Part shown: in pieces, positions 56,734 to 63,921 of the stretch
Position numbering within the stretch: position 1 is the first letter of the stretch
How the letters are laid out: each line of letters begins with the position of its first letter
NCBI GenBank assembly: GCA_020852275.1
Contig: JADZBE010000026.1
Span: forward strand, 1 to 64,000
DNA from: Phycisphaerales bacterium
GTDB lineage: Bacteria; Planctomycetota; Phycisphaerae; UBA1845
Direction: 5' to 3'
DNA: 64,000 bases
The notes under the pieces: model-generated
Seen by the model: only the letters and a program-made list of their open reading frames with translations
What the model was told of the DNA's origin: nothing
Database searches by the model: none
Program-made: the position numbers and the translations under genes

Positions 56734-56934
56734 TCAAGACGAAGGCAGGTCAACCACGATCTGGTCAGCCGGGATCCAGACCACTTTGCCGTCCTGCCAG
56801 ACGACGATGGGATCGCCGGTGCGCTGGTGGTCGAGCAGCGCGTCGCGCACGGCGTCCTGCATGGCCGCGTCCATGATGGCGTCGTCATCGAAGACGGCCC
56901 GAATATCGACCGATTCTTCAGTCTGTCGAATCAC
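56734..56934 (-). CDS. Small protein overlapping the zeta-like kinase gene
   Basis: About 66 residues starting with GTG 56934, which overlaps the end of the zeta-like kinase gene by 17 bases; AGGAGC lies seven bases upstream. Sequence: a helical acidic N-terminus (DIRAVFDDDAIMDAAMQDA) and a C-terminal strand region (IVVWQDGKVVWIPADQ). The overlap and same strand suggest a functional pair with the kinase, possibly as its antitoxin or regulator, but no known antitoxin fold is recognised. Confidence 0.62.
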   Translation of the reverse strand: MIRQTEESVDIRAVFDDDAIMDAAMQDAVRDALLDHQRTGDPIVVWQDGKVVWIPADQIVVDLPSS

Positions 56935-57517
56935 GGCTTTGCTCCTGGATCCGCTCCCAGAGGCTCTTTTCCCGAACAAGCGTTGCCCGCCCGACGCCAC
57001 CACGGGCGATAAGCAGGGGAATCGCCCCCGCGCTATCATACACCCGAAACGCCGAAACGATAGGGATGTACAAGGTGAAGAGGTTCTGAAGGCTTCGATC
57101 GTATCTCCGCCGTACCGTAGTCTCGTCGATTGAATGTCCCCCGCGGCTCGCTCGGTCCCGCACCCTCGCCACGGCCAAATCAGCCGATGGTAGCCAAAGG
57201 TACATCAAGCTTGTTTCGTATCCCTGGGTCATCCGTGCTTGGAGCCACGGTGCGAGTGTTCGCGCTGCCAACGTCGTCTCAAGAGCGAAGCTCACACCCG
57301 AGTCGGCCAGCGCATTGATTCGAGAGAGCATGATGCGTGAGGCCTCGTATGCCACGCTCTCGGGATCAAACCCTGCCAACCCGCGAGCGATGACATCGGC
57401 ATTAACGAACTGAGGAACATGCAACCTGCCGCGCAGCAATTTGGGCGCAGCGGTGGTCTTCCCGGCACCGTTGGGGCCGGCGAGGATGACGACGTGAAGT
57501 GACGCTGTGGATGGCAT
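56918..57517 (-). CDS. Zeta-toxin-like P-loop kinase
   Basis: About 199 residues. Walker A is AGPNGAGKTT (from residue 13), followed by FVNADVIARGLAGFDPE (Asp41 in the catalytic position), FALETTLAARTLAPWL and a distal YLWLPSADLAVARVRDRAS region. These match the zeta/PezT family, which phosphorylates UDP-GlcNAc-type substrates or acts as a poison. ATG 57517 precedes the P-loop. The small gene that overlaps its 3' end could be a partner. Not every zeta-like AAA protein is a toxin, so the role is inferred. Confidence 0.8.
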   Translation of the reverse strand: MPSTASLHVVILAGPNGAGKTTAAPKLLRGRLHVPQFVNADVIARGLAGFDPESVAYEASRIMLSRINALADSGVSFALETTLAARTLAPWLQARMTQGYETSLMYLWLPSADLAVARVRDRASRGGHSIDETTVRRRYDRSLQNLFTLYIPIVSAFRVYDSAGAIPLLIARGGVGRATLVREKSLWERIQEQSRDSTD

Positions 57518-57533
57518 TTCAGGCAGCAGGAGA

Positions 57534-58625
57534 TCAGGGTGTCCGCTTGTACGGGCCAAACCCGAGCGTTCCGACTATTCGATGGTAGAGTTTCTCCCTA
57601 AGTTGATCGGGTTCCTGCCATTTGATGGTATTGATTTGTTGGACATCAAAGTGCCTTCCTGGGAAGTGCGATTCGCGACATGTGTGTATTACCGGGATAC
57701 CAAGTCCACGAGCAAAGCCGGATTCAAAGTAAACGCCACCGCGATGTCCCGTAAAATCAGCTACCGCGAAGGGCGCGACGCGGATCATGCCCATGACCTG
57801 ATCCATCACGAAGTCGTTGTGCGGCCTCAAGTCCACCCTATCGGCCTTGTACCCTGCCTCTTCCACTGCCATGAGGATATGGTTCTGGTAAAGGTCACTC
57901 ATGAATGCTTGAGTCTCGGCCGCTGAGTCATCCCCGAACCACATCGCAACGAAGGCTGGCTGGCGGGGGTTAGCCCGCGTACGCTCAAGTTCGTCAATAC
58001 GACGCCAGCCCTTGGAGGTAATCACAACCATTAGACTGTTTGGTGGCTCTTGGAGAACTCCCTCTTCAATCAGAGCACTTAAACAACCGCGTGCTTCTCC
58101 GTCATCGGGTGCGAAACACATGCGTCGGAGGTCGTCGCGCGTCGAATCGTTCGTAAGGAATCCCCGACCGAGCGAAGTGACTCGACCGAGATTTTGAAGG
58201 ATTCGGTCAAATCGGTCGGCAACGGTGGATGGCCAACGATTGAGGAATTCTTCAAATGTGATGGCGGTGAAGGGTTCGAGCGGATATGTCTCGTGAAACG
58301 ACTCCCCATCAAATAAGAGATAGGGCGTCGGTAGTTTTCTAGATTGATGCTCTGCGATGAGGGCTTGGAGCTTATGCGCGTTTGATCGCAGTTGGTCTTG
58401 GAGCGAGCGCAGCTCAGGTTGTGAGGGACCGGCAGGCGTTCGCAGTGCCTGATCCGCCACTCTCGACACGGCATATTGGCCGCAACATTTACACCAGCAT
58501 TTCAGCGTTCCCAGATTGTTCTGCAGCATCGCTGTCGTGGGGTTCGCAAGAGATGCAACAGATTGCAAGGGAGTCTGCTGAGCACGCTCGTGCCCGCAGA
58601 TAAGACACGGCCTTGAATCAGGCAT
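57534..58625 (-). CDS. Zinc-finger protein with C-terminal nucleoside-deoxyribosyltransferase/TIR-like domain
   Basis: About 363 residues. The N-terminus has a cysteine cluster (PCLICGH and CWCKCCGQY), probably one zinc finger. The middle has a winged-helix-like tract (TRDDLRRMCFAPDDGEARGC). Residues 224-345 form the C-terminal domain: AFVAMWFGDDSAAETQAFMS, AVADFTGHRGGVYFESGFAR (Asp290, Arg295, Glu301), then GLGIPVIHTCRE. This matches a widespread group related to nucleoside 2-deoxyribosyltransferases and TIR-like NAD-consuming enzymes; Glu301 is the candidate catalytic residue. The combination and location in a defence island suggest a nucleotide-acting immune effector. Function not proven. 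It is less GC-rich than most genes here. Confidence 0.72.
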   Translation of the reverse strand: MPDSRPCLICGHERAQQTPLQSVASLANPTTAMLQNNLGTLKCWCKCCGQYAVSRVADQALRTPAGPSQPELRSLQDQLRSNAHKLQALIAEHQSRKLPTPYLLFDGESFHETYPLEPFTAITFEEFLNRWPSTVADRFDRILQNLGRVTSLGRGFLTNDSTRDDLRRMCFAPDDGEARGCLSALIEEGVLQEPPNSLMVVITSKGWRRIDELERTRANPRQPAFVAMWFGDDSAAETQAFMSDLYQNHILMAVEEAGYKADRVDLRPHNDFVMDQVMGMIRVAPFAVADFTGHRGGVYFESGFARGLGIPVIHTCRESHFPGRHFDVQQINTIKWQEPDQLREKLYHRIVGTLGFGPYKRTP

Positions 58626-58853: not shown

Positions 58854-59060
58854 TCACGCCTCCACATACTCGCAAACGCTTGTCGGTTCCGGTGCATCCA
58901 TTCCGTCGGCCCGAAGGCCTTCCAGATGAAATCGGATAACTTTGCGGATTTCCTGTTGCGTTTCCTGAAGAGTCGCGCCGGTTGCGATGCACCCCGGCAA
59001 GTCGGGCACGAACGCAGAGTAGTTCCCGTTTGCTTTCTCGATGACGATGGCGTAACGCAT
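58854..59060 (-). CDS. hicB: HicB-family antitoxin
   Basis: About 68 residues in the HicB fold: MRYAIVIEKANGNYSAFVPD, DLPGCIATGATLQETQQEIR and a C-terminal IRFHLEGLRADGMDAPEP. It follows hicA with a one-base overlap (TGATG). HicB blocks the HicA mRNA interferase. ATG 59060 has GGAGAAG seven bases upstream. No C-terminal DNA-binding domain is present, unlike in some HicB proteins, so autoregulation may differ. Confidence 0.9.
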   Translation of the reverse strand: MRYAIVIEKANGNYSAFVPDLPGCIATGATLQETQQEIRKVIRFHLEGLRADGMDAPEPTSVCEYVEA

Positions 59061-59254
59061 CACGACTTCTCCTTGAGTCCCGCTTGCTTCAGGATGCTGT
59101 TCAGTGTGCCTGGTGCAAGCTCGTCCGATGGCTTGCCGGCGACTGTGACACGACCGGGCTTGGTTGGATGTTTGTATTGCCGATGGCTTCCCCTCGTAGC
59201 CACGAGGCACCAACCGTCGGATTCAATTATCCTGATGACTTCCCGAATCTTCAA
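59060..59254 (-). CDS. hicA: HicA-family mRNA interferase toxin
   Basis: About 64 residues with the double-stranded-RNA-binding-like fold of HicA: IREVIRIIESDGWCLVATRG, SHRQYKHPTKPGRVTVAGK and LAPGTLNSILKQAGL. The catalytic histidine is in GSHRQYKH. TTG 59254 is the only start that places the protein at the right size; GGCGAG is upstream. It forms a toxin-antitoxin pair with hicB directly downstream and may stabilise the island. Confidence 0.85.
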   Translation of the reverse strand: MKIREVIRIIESDGWCLVATRGSHRQYKHPTKPGRVTVAGKPSDELAPGTLNSILKQAGLKEKS

Positions 59255-59307
59255 ACCGGGCTCGCCCCCTATTGTATGCCGCAAGCTCGCCACAACGCCG
59301 ACGTACC

Positions 59308-60513
59308 TTACCGGATAACCCTCAGTGGCACCCCGCCATCCCCTCTCGGCAGCGGGTCCGGCGGTTTGATGTCCACGCTCGCGTTCTTCAGCGTGGCTTC
59401 GCCGCGGGCGACCTTCTCCGCGAAACTCCGGCACTCGCTCATCAGCGCGTCGAGCATCGACTCCGTCGGCACGATGGCCTTCTGTTCGCCCTGCACGTAG
59501 ATGATGCCCTTCCCCTTGCCCGCGAAGATGGCCACGTCCGCGCCTTCGCACTCGCCCGGGCCGTTGACCACGCAGCCCATCACCGCGAGCTTGATCGGCG
59601 GAAGCTTCTCCTGCGCCAGCTTGTGCCGCACGTCTGTCACCAGCGTGTACAGGTCCACCTCGATCCGCCCGCAAGCGGGGCAGGCGATCAGCTCCGGCTC
59701 CGTGCGGCTGCGAAGACTCAGGCAGCACAGAAGCTCCTTGCCGTCCTCGACTTCGAACACCGGGTCGGCCGCGTAAGAGATGCGGATCGTGTCGCCGATG
59801 CCGTTGGCCAGCAGCGTGCCCAGCGCGGTAATGCTGCGGATGCGCCCCGTCTCCGGCGGGCCGGCGTGCGTAACGCCCAGGTGCAGCGGAAAGTCGAAGC
59901 GCTGCGAGAGCGCGGTGTACGCGTCGATCACAATGCGCGGGTCGATCGACTTCGCGGAGATGACGATGTCGTGGTAGTCGGCTTCGTCGAAGATGCGCAG
60001 GTATTCCTCGGTCTTTTCGATCATGATGCGGATCAGCCCGCCGGCGTAGTCCTGCGTGAGCGAGGCCTTCTCCTCGGCACGGGCGTCCTTGTCGCGGCGC
60101 TCGACGATGCCGCCCTCATTGACGCCCACGCGGATGGGGATGCGCCGCTCCTTGCACGCGGCGATAACGCGAAGCACCTGCTTGCGGTCCTGAATGTTGC
60201 CGGGGTTGAGGCGGATTTTGTGCACGCCGGCCTCGATGGCTTCCAGCGCCCGCTGAAAATGAAAGTGCACGTCCGCGACGATGGGCACGGGCGACGCGGG
60301 GAGAATGTGCTTGAGCGCTTCCGTATCGGTCTTCTCCGGCACGGCCACGCGCACGAGGTCCGCGCCCGCCCGCGCGAGCTTCTGAATCTCCGCGATGCAC
60401 TTGTCGATTTCGTAGGTGTACCCGGACGTCATGGTCTGAAGCACGACCGGCGCCCCGCCGCCGAGCGGGACGGAGCCGACGAAGACCTGACGGGTTGGAT
60501 GACGAGGTGGCAT
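59308..60513 (-). CDS. ispG: 4-hydroxy-3-methylbut-2-enyl diphosphate synthase (GcpE)
   Basis: About 401 residues. It catalyses the penultimate step of the MEP isoprenoid pathway using a [4Fe-4S] cluster. The TIM-barrel part has VPLGGGAPVVLQTMTSGYTY, VRVAVPEKTD, PIVADVHFHFQRAL, HKIRLNPGNI and LHLGVTHAG. The cluster cysteines are in CPACGRIEVD and MGCVVNGPGE. It is the only housekeeping gene in the island. ATG 60513 gives the normal N-terminus. A diverged second 5' fragment of the same gene lies at 62657-62830, on the far side of the AAA/DUF4276 cassette. Confidence 0.94.
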   Translation of the reverse strand: MPPRHPTRQVFVGSVPLGGGAPVVLQTMTSGYTYEIDKCIAEIQKLARAGADLVRVAVPEKTDTEALKHILPASPVPIVADVHFHFQRALEAIEAGVHKIRLNPGNIQDRKQVLRVIAACKERRIPIRVGVNEGGIVERRDKDARAEEKASLTQDYAGGLIRIMIEKTEEYLRIFDEADYHDIVISAKSIDPRIVIDAYTALSQRFDFPLHLGVTHAGPPETGRIRSITALGTLLANGIGDTIRISYAADPVFEVEDGKELLCCLSLRSRTEPELIACPACGRIEVDLYTLVTDVRHKLAQEKLPPIKLAVMGCVVNGPGECEGADVAIFAGKGKGIIYVQGEQKAIVPTESMLDALMSECRSFAEKVARGEATLKNASVDIKPPDPLPRGDGGVPLRVIR

Positions 60514-60529: not shown

Positions 60530-61132
60530 CTACGTGTCGGCTGTTAGCTGATCTACAAACCGAGCGCAGAACGGCATCTGTTCACGAACAACCATGACAT
60601 TCACGGCACCCAGTGCAGCAAAGGACGCTTTGCCCTTCGTATATTTACCCTTTGACGTGCGCTGGGTTGCTGATCGAAGTGCCTCGAATACTTTCCACCG
60701 CTCAACCGCCTCCAAGTCGGATGCGCTTGGTAAGCGACTCGAAGCAAAGCCCTGGCCATAGAATCGGTCCAGGGACTCGGGGTCTGCAATAAGCCATGAT
60801 TCCATGCACACGGCCATAAAATGAAGGTGTTTCTCAGAAGCATTGGCCGGACGGTCCCAGTTATCCCCGGGTCGGTTGCTTACGTGCTGCCAAACAGAGT
60901 TCTCGGAATTGACGCGATCCTCGGAGTCAACGAGCAACAGATAGGCTCCGCCCGGATTTGCCATCAGGGCAGTGCTTAGCCGTGAGAATGCATCTGCACG
61001 ACTGCCGCATGCGACGAGCTTCGGGCTATGAGGAAGGTTCAACCTCCCGAGGAAGTTTCGAAAACCCTCTCGACATCGAGTGCGGAGATCCTTGCTCTGC
61101 CCGCCTCCCTCAAGGAATATTGTCAAGCTCAA
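60530..61132 (-). CDS. DUF4276-like protein (possible TOPRIM/RloB-related partner)
   Basis: About 200 residues. LTIFLEGGGQSKDLRTRCRE (the EGGG box), AYLLLVDSEDRV and MAVCMESWLIADPESLDRFY match the DUF4276/RloB-type family, which shows TOPRIM-like acidic residues. It starts with TTG overlapping the stop of the AAA ATPase gene by four bases, indicating coupled expression. Such AAA-plus-DUF4276 or RloB pairs recur in defence islands, in the manner of OLD/AbiL-type systems. A nuclease role is inferred, not shown. It ends 17 bp before ispG. Confidence 0.74.
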   Translation of the reverse strand: MSLTIFLEGGGQSKDLRTRCREGFRNFLGRLNLPHSPKLVACGSRADAFSRLSTALMANPGGAYLLLVDSEDRVNSENSVWQHVSNRPGDNWDRPANASEKHLHFMAVCMESWLIADPESLDRFYGQGFASSRLPSASDLEAVERWKVFEALRSATQRTSKGKYTKGKASFAALGAVNVMVVREQMPFCARFVDQLTADT

Positions 61133-62301
61133 AATCGCCGCCCTCCAATTTGCCCGCTGTTCCAGAGTTCACCAAGTTGATACTTTTCCAGCCAAACTTG
61201 GAGATTCGCGCGGTTGAGGCGATTCAGCGTCGTTGCCCCGTCTTGCTTCTCGCAAACGACGATTGATTCCGGTTGATCGCTCAACGCATCGACGAGCTCG
61301 TCGGAATGGGTCGTCACAATAATCTGCATTCGCTTGCTCGCCTCTTGCAACAAATCGGATAGTGCGGGGATAATGTCCGGATGAAGTCCAAGGTCGGGTT
61401 CATCAAGGCAAACCACCTTCGGAGGAGAGGGATCCAACAATATCGCCAACAGAGCAAGCCATCGCATCGTGCCATCGGACAGCCGCGTGGCTGGCGTAAT
61501 CCATTGGTTCTCAGTCAGGTATATCTGAACGGTGCCGCCCTCGATCCGGACGTCCACGGCTTCAGCGCTGGGATAGAATCGCCTAAGCAAATCCTCCAGT
61601 CTCGTTCGCGACTCTCTGTGCGCCCGCAAACGGTTCAGAATGAGCCCGATATTTGAGCCGTCTTCGAGGAGCGCGCGTGAGGGCAGGTCGGTACGCTGAG
61701 GTTGACGCGTGGGCGATTTGGGACCGAAGTTAATATCTCGATAGGCACGAATTCCTTCGTAATCGGCTCGAATATGTGCGATCTCAGGATACTCGTCCGG
61801 ATCGTTCCGCTGGGCAAGGACCGATCGTTCAGGATCGAGATCTTCGCGGCGCAGTGATCGCTTCGGATTCCGATCGCTTTCGACACCGGCGAACCATGCA
61901 CGACCGTGCTCGTAGTGAAAATAAAAGAACGGACGTTGAGCCCGATGATCGGTCTTCTGGGAAGCCTCAATCAATTCATCCTCGACGGTGAACCGCTGAG
62001 CCGCTGATCGAAAGTCGAGACGGTGCCGGAGACACGGAGCGCGCGTCAGATCAATGCCCTCAAGTACAACTTCGATCCGCGCGATCGCGTCAACTGCCGA
62101 GCCTTTCCAAATCCAGTCAATGATTGGCAGTGAAACTTCAGGACCGGCCGCCGGCAACCGGCTCAGAAGATACATCGCCTCCAGTACGTTGGACTTTCCG
62201 CAGCCGTTCGGCCCGATGAGAACATTCAACGGCCCCAATTCCAAGTTCGTTTCATTTGGGCCAAAGGAGAGCAAGTTACGGAATAGAATCGACTTAAGCA
62301 T
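61129..62301 (-). CDS. AAA family ATPase (SMC-like, OLD/RloA type)
   Basis: About 390 residues with an ABC/SMC-type ATPase head. Walker A is GPNGCGKSNVLEAM (from residue 30); a signature LSDGTMRWLALLAI and Walker B VVCLDEPDLGLHPD lie in the C-terminal half; the switch histidine is in IVTTHSDELVDAL. The long middle helix region lacks an obvious coiled coil. ATG 62301 opens MLKSILFRNLLSFGPNE; the upstream extension runs through the broken nucleotidyltransferase gene. It pairs with the overlapping DUF4276 gene. Related pairs act in abortive infection; here the target is unknown. Confidence 0.84.
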   Translation of the reverse strand: MLKSILFRNLLSFGPNETNLELGPLNVLIGPNGCGKSNVLEAMYLLSRLPAAGPEVSLPIIDWIWKGSAVDAIARIEVVLEGIDLTRAPCLRHRLDFRSAAQRFTVEDELIEASQKTDHRAQRPFFYFHYEHGRAWFAGVESDRNPKRSLRREDLDPERSVLAQRNDPDEYPEIAHIRADYEGIRAYRDINFGPKSPTRQPQRTDLPSRALLEDGSNIGLILNRLRAHRESRTRLEDLLRRFYPSAEAVDVRIEGGTVQIYLTENQWITPATRLSDGTMRWLALLAILLDPSPPKVVCLDEPDLGLHPDIIPALSDLLQEASKRMQIIVTTHSDELVDALSDQPESIVVCEKQDGATTLNRLNRANLQVWLEKYQLGELWNSGQIGGRRF

Positions 62302-62440
62302 ACGATTTCTCAAATGCCTGAGGGGGTGCCGTTCCGCGGCAGTGGATGGTATACCCCCCGGCCAGCAGGTATTCAACCTTCACCAAGTTCAGCGAACTCA
62401 AAAACTCTCTGAAGTCGGCCGGTAATCGCGGCGTCGTCAT
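62294..62440 (-). pseudogene. Truncated nucleotidyltransferase gene
   Basis: Starting at ATG 62440 it reads PRLPADFREFLSSLNLVKVE and YLLAGGYTIH, which is the N-terminus of a DUF6036-type or minimal nucleotidyltransferase (GGYAvHYHG expected next). It then leaves the family sequence and ends with RGTAPPQAFEKSYA. The metal-binding Asp residues that should follow are absent. It stops exactly where the AAA cassette begins, so the cassette junction is probably within it (about 62340). Confidence 0.68.
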
Positions 62441-62603
62441 GATTGATCTGCCTAAGAAGCTCCGCTGCTTCGAGCCGCTCGTCCGGGGTTCGACCAAGCC
62501 AGTACTCGCGCTCGCCGTCGTCGAGCGTCCCGAACTCGAAGACCCTTCGATCCATCCGCGCGGTGGAAACCTGGTCAACATTTCGCGGACGTTCTTCGCT
62601 CAT
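62373..62603 (-). CDS. Small partner protein of a nucleotidyltransferase module
   Basis: 76 residues, ATG 62603. The sequence DDGEREYWLGRTPDERLEAA and ELLRQINHDDAAITGRLQRV matches a common small helical protein that precedes nucleotidyltransferase genes in genomic islands. Such pairs are suspected antitoxin/toxin or modification modules. Its partner downstream is truncated, so this gene is probably orphaned. It overlaps the start of that partner. Confidence 0.6.
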   Translation of the reverse strand: MSEERPRNVDQVSTARMDRRVFEFGTLDDGEREYWLGRTPDERLEAAELLRQINHDDAAITGRLQRVFEFAELGEG

Positions 62604-62656: not shown

Positions 62657-62830
62657 GCCGGTATCGGCCTCCGTCGGCACGGCCATGCGCACGGCGTCCT
62701 CCCCCGCGCGGGCGAGTTTCTGAATCTCGGCGATGCAGGCGTCGACGTCATGCGTGTAGCCGGCGGTCATGGTCTTAAGCACGATGGGCGCGCCGCCGCC
62801 GAGCGGAACGCGATCGGCGAAGGCGTAGCG
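62657..62830 (-). pseudogene. Second, diverged ispG 5' fragment
   Basis: In the frame from 62905 the segment RVPLGGGAPIVLKTMTAGYT, then IAEIQKLARAGEDAVRMAVP, mirrors the first 58 residues of IspG at 60513. The two differ at many positions (VVLQTMTSGYTYEID versus IVLKTMTAGYTHDVD), so it is not a recent exact copy. It stops abruptly at about 62657. Confidence 0.75.
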
Positions 62831-62874
62831 GATCCCTGTCGGCACGCTCTCCGAGCGCTCAATCCTATTCCACC

Positions 62875-63921
62875 CTATTCCACTGGGAAGCGGCTGAACG
62901 TCCATGGGACCAATAGCTCGGCCTTGCGCAAATACGGATTGTCCCAGAGGTTTGGAGCAGCCTCGTTCAACCCGGACGGATAACAGCCCGGAACAAGCAT
63001 CACGCCAATGAGGTTTTGGCCCAAGGCGCTTGCGGCATCATCCCAGATCGAGCTCGTTTTCGAGCCGTCTCTACTTGTGTCAGTTGCCCCATACAACACA
63101 CTCTTGATCTCTTCTAAATCGGGCAAGTTGGCGAAATCATTAAATGCAATCGCAACTACCAGGCGCTCACAGGACTTGTATCGCCTTACCTTTTCAGCAA
63201 TGGCGTCTCTTAGCTTCACCTCCCCGACGTCGCCCGTCCACGCTGCCGACGCCTGTCCGGCGATCACCTGCGCCAGCTTCTCATTACTATTCAGGTCAAT
63301 CAGGTAAAGCTTGAGCCTCCAACCTTCTGGTTCGCAATAGTCCCGGCTCCTCGGCACCATTGTGGAGTATCGAGCCTGAGTGAACCAATCATTCAAGAAT
63401 AACGCGAACTTTCGAGCGCTCGGATTGGCGTCGGACACTCTGCTTCCAGCCAAACTCAAGCCAACCGCGAATCCTTGCACGGTGATCAACGGTGAGGCCT
63501 CCATATTGAGCTGATGGATTCTCTTTGCAAGTTTGGAGGTCGCCGATGATTCGCGAATTACGGTGCATTCGACGATAGTGGACAACGAGTTTGCGTTGGT
63601 AACTCGAAAATCTGGTGTCAACCCTTGGTCAATCTGCGGATTCACTTCGATGTCAAAACCAAGGGATCGAAACACTTCATGCACGTAGAGCTCAAAAACG
63701 GCTGCTTCGAATGCGGATTCGTCCTTGGCGGTGAGCCTAGCGTAAAGGTGCTGTTTGGAGGCAGGAGGAAAGTCCTTCCAAAGTCGATTCAGCGTTTCCC
63801 GCGCCAAGACGGCGTGGGCGCGCTCCGAACGTGAGAGGTATTGGAACGGGGTCTCGCCTGGGCAGATCGCGCCCCCGGAGAGAAGTGCAGAACAGAATAA
63901 TTCAGCGGGAGCGGCGCTCAT
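62875..63921 (-). CDS. Unknown protein with a PD-(D/E)XK-like nuclease core
   Basis: About 348 residues, ATG 63921. Residues 71-125 look like a restriction-endonuclease-type core: FEAAVFELYVHEVFRSLGF, GLTPDFRVTNANSL and STIVECTVIRESS. PDF gives the first acidic residue and VEC the second; a following lysine is not in the usual place. The remainder (FALFLNDWFTQARYSTMV, LVVAIAFNDFANLPDLEEIK) is not recognised. It lies at the edge of the island and could be an orphan effector. The gene is complete, and only about 80 bases of the window lie upstream of it. Confidence 0.62.
   Translation of the reverse strand: MSAAPAELFCSALLSGGAICPGETPFQYLSRSERAHAVLARETLNRLWKDFPPASKQHLYARLTAKDESAFEAAVFELYVHEVFRSLGFDIEVNPQIDQGLTPDFRVTNANSLSTIVECTVIRESSATSKLAKRIHQLNMEASPLITVQGFAVGLSLAGSRVSDANPSARKFALFLNDWFTQARYSTMVPRSRDYCEPEGWRLKLYLIDLNSNEKLAQVIAGQASAAWTGDVGEVKLRDAIAEKVRRYKSCERLVVAIAFNDFANLPDLEEIKSVLYGATDTSRDGSKTSSIWDDAASALGQNLIGVMLVPGCYPSGLNEAAPNLWDNPYLRKAELLVPWTFSRFPVE

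Follow-up and report, generated by a model that had tools for sequence, protein, structure and literature searches.

A catalogued HEC-01 operon beside ispG in a Phycisphaerales genome and its predicted split OLD-type nuclease

Genes at the ispG locus

The window, which is the whole 64,000-nucleotide stretch of DNA analysed here, comes from contig C26 of a Phycisphaerales genome of 5.05 Mb (G000). It includes an intact ispG gene that is flanked by the following features.

58854 to 59257, reverse strand: hicA-hicB toxin-antitoxin pair (HicA 84 bits, HicB-like 50 bits)
59308 to 60513, reverse strand: ispG (GcpE), intact, 401 aa (Pfam GcpE, 385 bits)
60530 to 61132, reverse strand: HEC-01B, DUF4276 protein and predicted OLD-type TOPRIM nuclease, 200 aa, TTG start
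61129 to 62301, reverse strand: HEC-01A, ABC/SMC-like ATPase, 390 aa, ATG at 62301
62302 to 62603, reverse strand: resident two-gene module cut by the HEC-01 block, 81% nucleotide identity to G002:C81:12751-12970
62659 to 62831, reverse strand: out-of-place ispG 5' fragment, residues ~8-66 (GcpE, 41 bits)

In Pfam, the ATPase matched AAA_21 (127 bits) and HEC-01B matched DUF4276 (60 bits). HEC-01A carries a Walker A motif (GPNGCGKS), a signature (LSDGT), a Walker B motif with DEPDLGLHPD and an H-loop (TTHSD). The ABC ATPase and the TOPRIM protein are encoded by two open reading frames and are not fused; as read from the window, the start codon of HEC-01B overlaps the stop codon of HEC-01A in the sequence TTGA. 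At 55%, the GC content of the block is below that of ispG (66%) and of the window (65%). Scans of the block for promoters and terminators gave hits at chance level only, and the block is probably co-transcribed with ispG.

The earlier note, made from the window alone, had taken the ATPase and the DUF4276-like gene for one unit, and this is borne out by the TTGA overlap and by an A-B order that is kept in other genera. Among the approximately 12 loci of other genera examined, most have this order with overlapping or near-overlapping ends, and the A-B junctions mostly overlap as NTGA. Relative to the orthologues in a genome from another family of the same order (G036), third codon positions differ about three times more than first and second positions (0.62 versus 0.22 and 0.15 for HEC-01A). 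A chance pairing is excluded, because the order and overlap recur in other genera and the third codon positions show this excess. As judged by codon position, the pair is under purifying selection, and as judged by the loci compared, it stays together across distant genera.

Identification and distribution of the HEC-01 pair

In PADLOC, the ATPase matched the HEC-01A model PDLC04177 with 485 bits (positions 4-393 of 393), and the DUF4276 protein matched the HEC-01B model PDLC04201 with 226 bits (positions 3-198 of 202). On these matches, the pair at ispG is already catalogued, as the candidate phage-defence system HEC-01. The view that the pair is of defence type is upheld. The earlier note had also held that the pair does not clearly match one system, and had named a precise match to a described system as the finding that would speak against it; the HEC-01A and HEC-01B scores are such a match, and this part of the note falls. 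The HECs are Hma-embedded candidates (PMC10855318), which, according to the citation in PMC12988326, originate in a 2024 preprint on 'guilt-by-embedding' by Payne et al. (doi 10.1101/2024.01.29.577857). Several HECs were shown to be active, and HEC-01 is not named among them (PMC12988326).

Across the phylum, HEC-01B was found in 12 of 294 genomes. G036 has the pair's nearest relative (75% and 59% amino acid identity), at a locus away from ispG. No relatives of HEC-01 were detected in plasmids, phages or viral contigs; the mobility of HEC-01 is therefore deduced from its patchiness and composition. The genome of the window has a further HEC-01 pair, which belongs to a different subtype (PADLOC HEC-01A 305 bits, HEC-01B 80 bits).

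G000:C22:52574-56225 (L108): second HEC-01 pair, flanked by an intact icd gene and a displaced icd 3' end of 86 nt

Predicted folds of HEC-01B and HEC-01A

The predicted model of HEC-01B (pLDDT 94.3) aligned best with the TOPRIM domain of BpOLD (Z 9.4, 166 residues aligned, 4.3 Å), followed by XccOLD (Z 8.7), TsOLD (8.1), GajA (7.7), AriB (7.5), PH0156 (6.2) and retron Eco8 (4.9). The nine top structural rows are OLD-type or TOPRIM-like (Z 9.4-6.2), and the first unrelated row has a Z of 4.4. The Z values for TOPRIM are moderate and the best Foldseek match has an E value of 0.012; a search of PDB sequences with the DUF4276 profile returned no match. Residues E8, D69, E71, E111, D117 and K166 are invariant across 11 aligned DUF4276 sequences. 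In the same alignment, the classical OLD motif EGxxE lacks a conserved second glutamate, EGGG being found instead, and metal binding by HEC-01B could therefore differ. According to the model, HEC-01B adopts a TOPRIM fold of the OLD type, the acidic residues listed above being invariant, and the likeness to split OLD systems proposed earlier is thereby confirmed for the DUF4276 protein. DUF4276 was not named in the open-access literature searched, and the TOPRIM assignment turns this family of unknown function into a testable predicted nuclease.

The Walker A motif, LSDGT signature, Walker B motif and H-loop are kept in 12 aligned HEC-01A sequences. On sequence grounds, HEC-01A bears all the motifs of an active ABC/SMC-like ATPase. 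Its predicted model (pLDDT 88.7) is closest to SMC and Rad50 heads, PtuA and TsOLD, and a profile search of the PDB retrieved PtuA, AriA, OLD and GajA.

Insertions at ispG

The ispG protein of the window is 92-93% identical to those of three congeneric genomes (G001 to G003). In G002, the small open reading frame of the resident module is followed by an intact nucleotidyltransferase gene (149 aa, G002:C81:12397-12846) and then directly by ispG, with no HEC-01. In the window, the module consists of the small open reading frame (62373-62603) and the first ~33 codons of the nucleotidyltransferase gene (to ~62345), and the match to this gene stops there, 44 bp before HEC-01A. At the other end, 16 bp lie between HEC-01B and the ispG ATG at 60513, and G002-like sequence may resume within ~20 bp before ispG. 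The break in the nucleotidyltransferase gene and the possible resumption before ispG indicate that HEC-01 replaced most of this gene. As mapped at both junctions by these alignments, HEC-01 at ispG is an insertion-replacement; the block would have entered a variable site at the ispG 5' end and replaced the tail of the resident nucleotidyltransferase gene. Both ends had been placed correctly before, one inside a broken nucleotidyltransferase gene and the other just before ispG. The accompanying claim of integration as a block stands in part: G002 has the site without the block, but the history is more layered than the arrival of a single block.

The ispG 5' fragment upstream of the small open reading frame, which is absent from the earlier note, is a 171-nt direct repeat (62661-62831) of 60323-60493, with 78% identity. 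It is nearer to ispG of G002 (89% nucleotide identity) than to the window's own ispG (78%). The hicAB pair directly follows the ispG stop codon in the window; in G003, this pair stands after a 3' fragment of ispG. In G003, two 5' pieces lie upstream and two 3' pieces downstream of the intact ispG, all on the same strand, and the locus also includes a DNA methyltransferase gene. On contig C22 of the window's genome, AlbA- and ParA-like genes are immediately followed by a 3' piece of ispG that contains stop codons; G036, which belongs to a different family, has sequence related to both genes downstream of an intact ispG.

G000:C22:85734-88319 (L055): Schlafen/AlbA and ParA-like genes directly before the ispG 3' remnant

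The arrangement of these pieces fits repeated insertions at the ispG locus, with the newest cargo closest to the intact gene. The HEC-01 block entered a site that was already layered and did so without a fresh ispG duplicate of its own, since it is bounded by ispG and the cut nucleotidyltransferase gene. An integrase-type island at ispG was rejected, as no recombinase is encoded between the gene and the fragment.

Several other genes were observed in this region. A 348-aa gene (62875-63921, reverse strand, GC 54%) has no Pfam family and a weak match to PADLOC PD-T7-5 (26.5 bits, residues 69-133), and is possibly an uncatalogued defence gene. The gene at 57534-58625 (reverse strand) encodes a protein of 363 aa, with a weak Nuc_deoxyrib_tr/TIR-effector-like match at its C-terminus, and overlaps a zeta-toxin-like kinase gene (56918-57559, reverse strand); the zeta-like region recurs downstream of ispG in G003. 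The ispG locus of G003 also encodes a candidate defence protein matching PDC-S39 (145 bits; G003:C9:116465-118255, L057:1465-3255). A dispersed repeat of ~100 bp is present in dozens of copies per genome in G001 to G003 (query L059:2447-2550).

Duplicated gene ends in the genus

Displaced copies of gene ends were counted, within 10 kb of the gene and outside other genes, in samples of the window's genome (849 kb) and of G003 (430 kb) that together held 796 genes as called by a simple ORF rule; the counts rest on partial samples, crude gene calls and mostly multi-contig drafts. Ten copies of 3' ends were found, all downstream and on the same strand, and five copies of 5' ends, all upstream and on the same strand, one of them from a doubtful open reading frame. 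None had the reverse arrangement in this sample. In the controls, which comprised 562 genes in 800 kb of two further genomes from the order, the corresponding counts were 0 and 1. For the 3' copies (11 measured), homology stops between -9 and +5 nt from the stop codon, and for the 5' copies it begins between -2 and +20 nt from the start codon; one pepT row was left out of these measurements as an artefact of overlapping windows. Small accessory cassettes of this genus (HEC-01, BrnT, PIN, HicAB and DUF2806) thus recur precisely at the start or stop codons of core genes, next to a displaced copy, 86-280 nt long, of the end of the gene concerned.

Host genes include icd, nuoF, nuoD, pepT, glyS, ispG and genes for an acyl-CoA dehydrogenase, an aminotransferase and an AMP-ligase. 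The cargo includes BrnT, whose start codon overlaps the stop codon of the host gene, PIN toxins, Fic/Doc, DUF6883 with DUF4926, DUF2806, HicAB and the second HEC-01 pair, and no recombinase was seen among it in the sampled loci. The pair at icd shows the gene-end pattern, as it sits between icd and the 86-nt icd 3' piece. The HEC-01 locus of G036 is without a gene-end fragment, hence HEC-01 is not tied to this mode of insertion. Further examples are as follows.

G000:C7:85121-87296, 105052-107988 and 302010-305103 (L083, L084, L094): core gene, toxin-antitoxin or other small cassette, displaced own 3' end
G003:C7:115902-118076 (L182): core gene, cassette, displaced own 3' end

Empty sites were available for two host genes. 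In G001 and G002, nothing separates the AMP-ligase gene from its native downstream sequence. In G003, a 1.3-kb BrnT cassette comes after the gene, and a 185-nt duplicate of the gene's end then leads into this native sequence. Identity between the two ends in G003 is 95.7%, versus ~87% between species. Similarly, nuoF is uninterrupted in G001 and G002, and G003 has a PIN cassette and a 202-nt duplicate. As far as can be read from these alignments, the AMP-ligase and nuoF loci show insertion with gene-end duplication.

Other origins were considered for these copies. Tandem duplication is ruled out at the AMP-ligase and nuoF genes: it would place identical sequence behind each of the two stop codons, but the sequences differ from the stop codon onward, and native downstream DNA is found after the fragment only. 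An assembly artefact was rejected, as the inserts and fragments at the pepT, AMP-ligase and acyl-CoA dehydrogenase genes are common to the separate genomes G000 and G003. The length of the fragment varies at one gene (pepT 115-182 nt, acyl-CoA dehydrogenase 140-160 nt), which makes a fixed att core unlikely. The copies could have arisen when circles bearing cargo together with a gene end integrated by a single crossover, by homology-assisted illegitimate joining, or through an unrecognised element.

It is possible, although we hold this only tentatively, that small defence and toxin cassettes without a recombinase of their own move by a distinct, repeatable route to the stop or start codons of core genes, such that the gene is left intact, 60-280 nt of its end is duplicated and the old end is pushed beyond the cargo; HEC-01 would then use such sites twice in one genome, on the 5' side of ispG and the 3' side of icd. 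Literature searches, of partial coverage, found no description of the pattern. If general, it would account for the arrival of small defence and toxin genes at core-gene ends without the help of transposons or integrases, and would provide a sequence signature for finding more uncatalogued cassettes.

Predicted action and comparison with known systems

The pair at ispG is probably HEC-01, a defence-type two-gene operon predicted from sequence and model to work as a split OLD nuclease. HEC-01A would bind HEC-01B and hold the nuclease idle until a phage component or an altered DNA or nucleotide state shifts its ATP cycle. The freed TOPRIM subunit may then cut nucleic acid, targeting phage DNA in the manner of OLD and Gabija or host tRNA in the manner of PARIS, and the infection would be aborted.

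It is unlikely that the pair is instead a DNA-repair or cell-cycle ATPase-nuclease of the Rad50/RecF or archaeal Cran1 kind. The top structural matches of HEC-01A are indeed SMC and Rad50 heads, and an archaeal OLD-family ATPase functions in cell-cycle progression (PMC12796447), but the patchy spread, the foreign GC content and the absence from the site in a sister species fit an accessory defence gene, as do the toxin-antitoxin and defence-type neighbours and the two unrelated copies in one genome. A toxin-antitoxin addiction module, with HEC-01B as toxin, HEC-01A as restraint and phage defence incidental, is judged quite improbable. The Pfam label for AAA_21 is 'putative AbiEii toxin, type IV TA', PDB entries of AriA and AriB are named antitoxin and toxin, and comparable gene-end cassettes in the genus are toxin-antitoxin modules; however, HEC systems were discovered by their embedding in defence loci (PMC12988326), and a plain antitoxin would not need the fully conserved ATPase motifs of HEC-01A. 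Membership of another two-gene ATPase system (AbiL, RloAB, PARIS or Menshen) is very improbable, as the matches of the ATPase to the PADLOC models AriA (124 bits), AbiLi (95) and NsnB (61) score far lower than HEC-01A, and its partner matched only HEC-01B models and Pfam DUF4276, with no match to the AriB, AbiLii, RloB or NsnC families (PADLOC and Pfam, E ≤ 0.01). The likeness to AbiL and RloAB noted earlier thus holds for the ATPase but not for its partner.

The pair at ispG and catalogued HEC-01 share the same two proteins, gene order and overlap; the only difference found is the place at ispG, and the fold of HEC-01B is assigned in the present analysis. OLD proteins of classes 1 and 2 (TsOLD, BpOLD and GajA of Gabija) share the two domains and the TOPRIM fold (Z 7.0-9.4), but there the domains are fused. 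No UvrD-like helicase of the Gabija type lies beside HEC-01, the neighbours being ispG and the nucleotidyltransferase remnant. PtuA of Septu and retrons is likewise an ABC ATPase without a long coiled coil (Z ~19 to HEC-01A), but its partner PtuB is an HNH nuclease, whereas HEC-01B has the TOPRIM fold.

With respect to the insertion sites, e14 and phage 21 insert in icd. These and the displaced 'orphan' ends of rhs/cdiA (e.g. PMC3150448) share with the genus loci an intact gene, cargo and a displaced original 3' end, but in the genus the cargo spans 0.3-2.3 kb and includes no integrase, many core genes are affected and the fragment length is variable at one gene.

PARIS, which consists of the ABC ATPase AriA and the TOPRIM protein AriB and is proposed as class 4 OLD (PMC10568477, PMC12409363), resembles HEC-01 in that one gene encodes an ABC ATPase and another an OLD-like TOPRIM nuclease; on sensing a trigger, AriA releases AriB, which cuts tRNA (PMC12409363). 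The HEC-01A model fits the ATPase far better than AriA does, and HEC-01B matches no AriB model, so that the pair is said to work like PARIS and not to be PARIS. HEC-01 would thus become a second split-OLD design besides PARIS.
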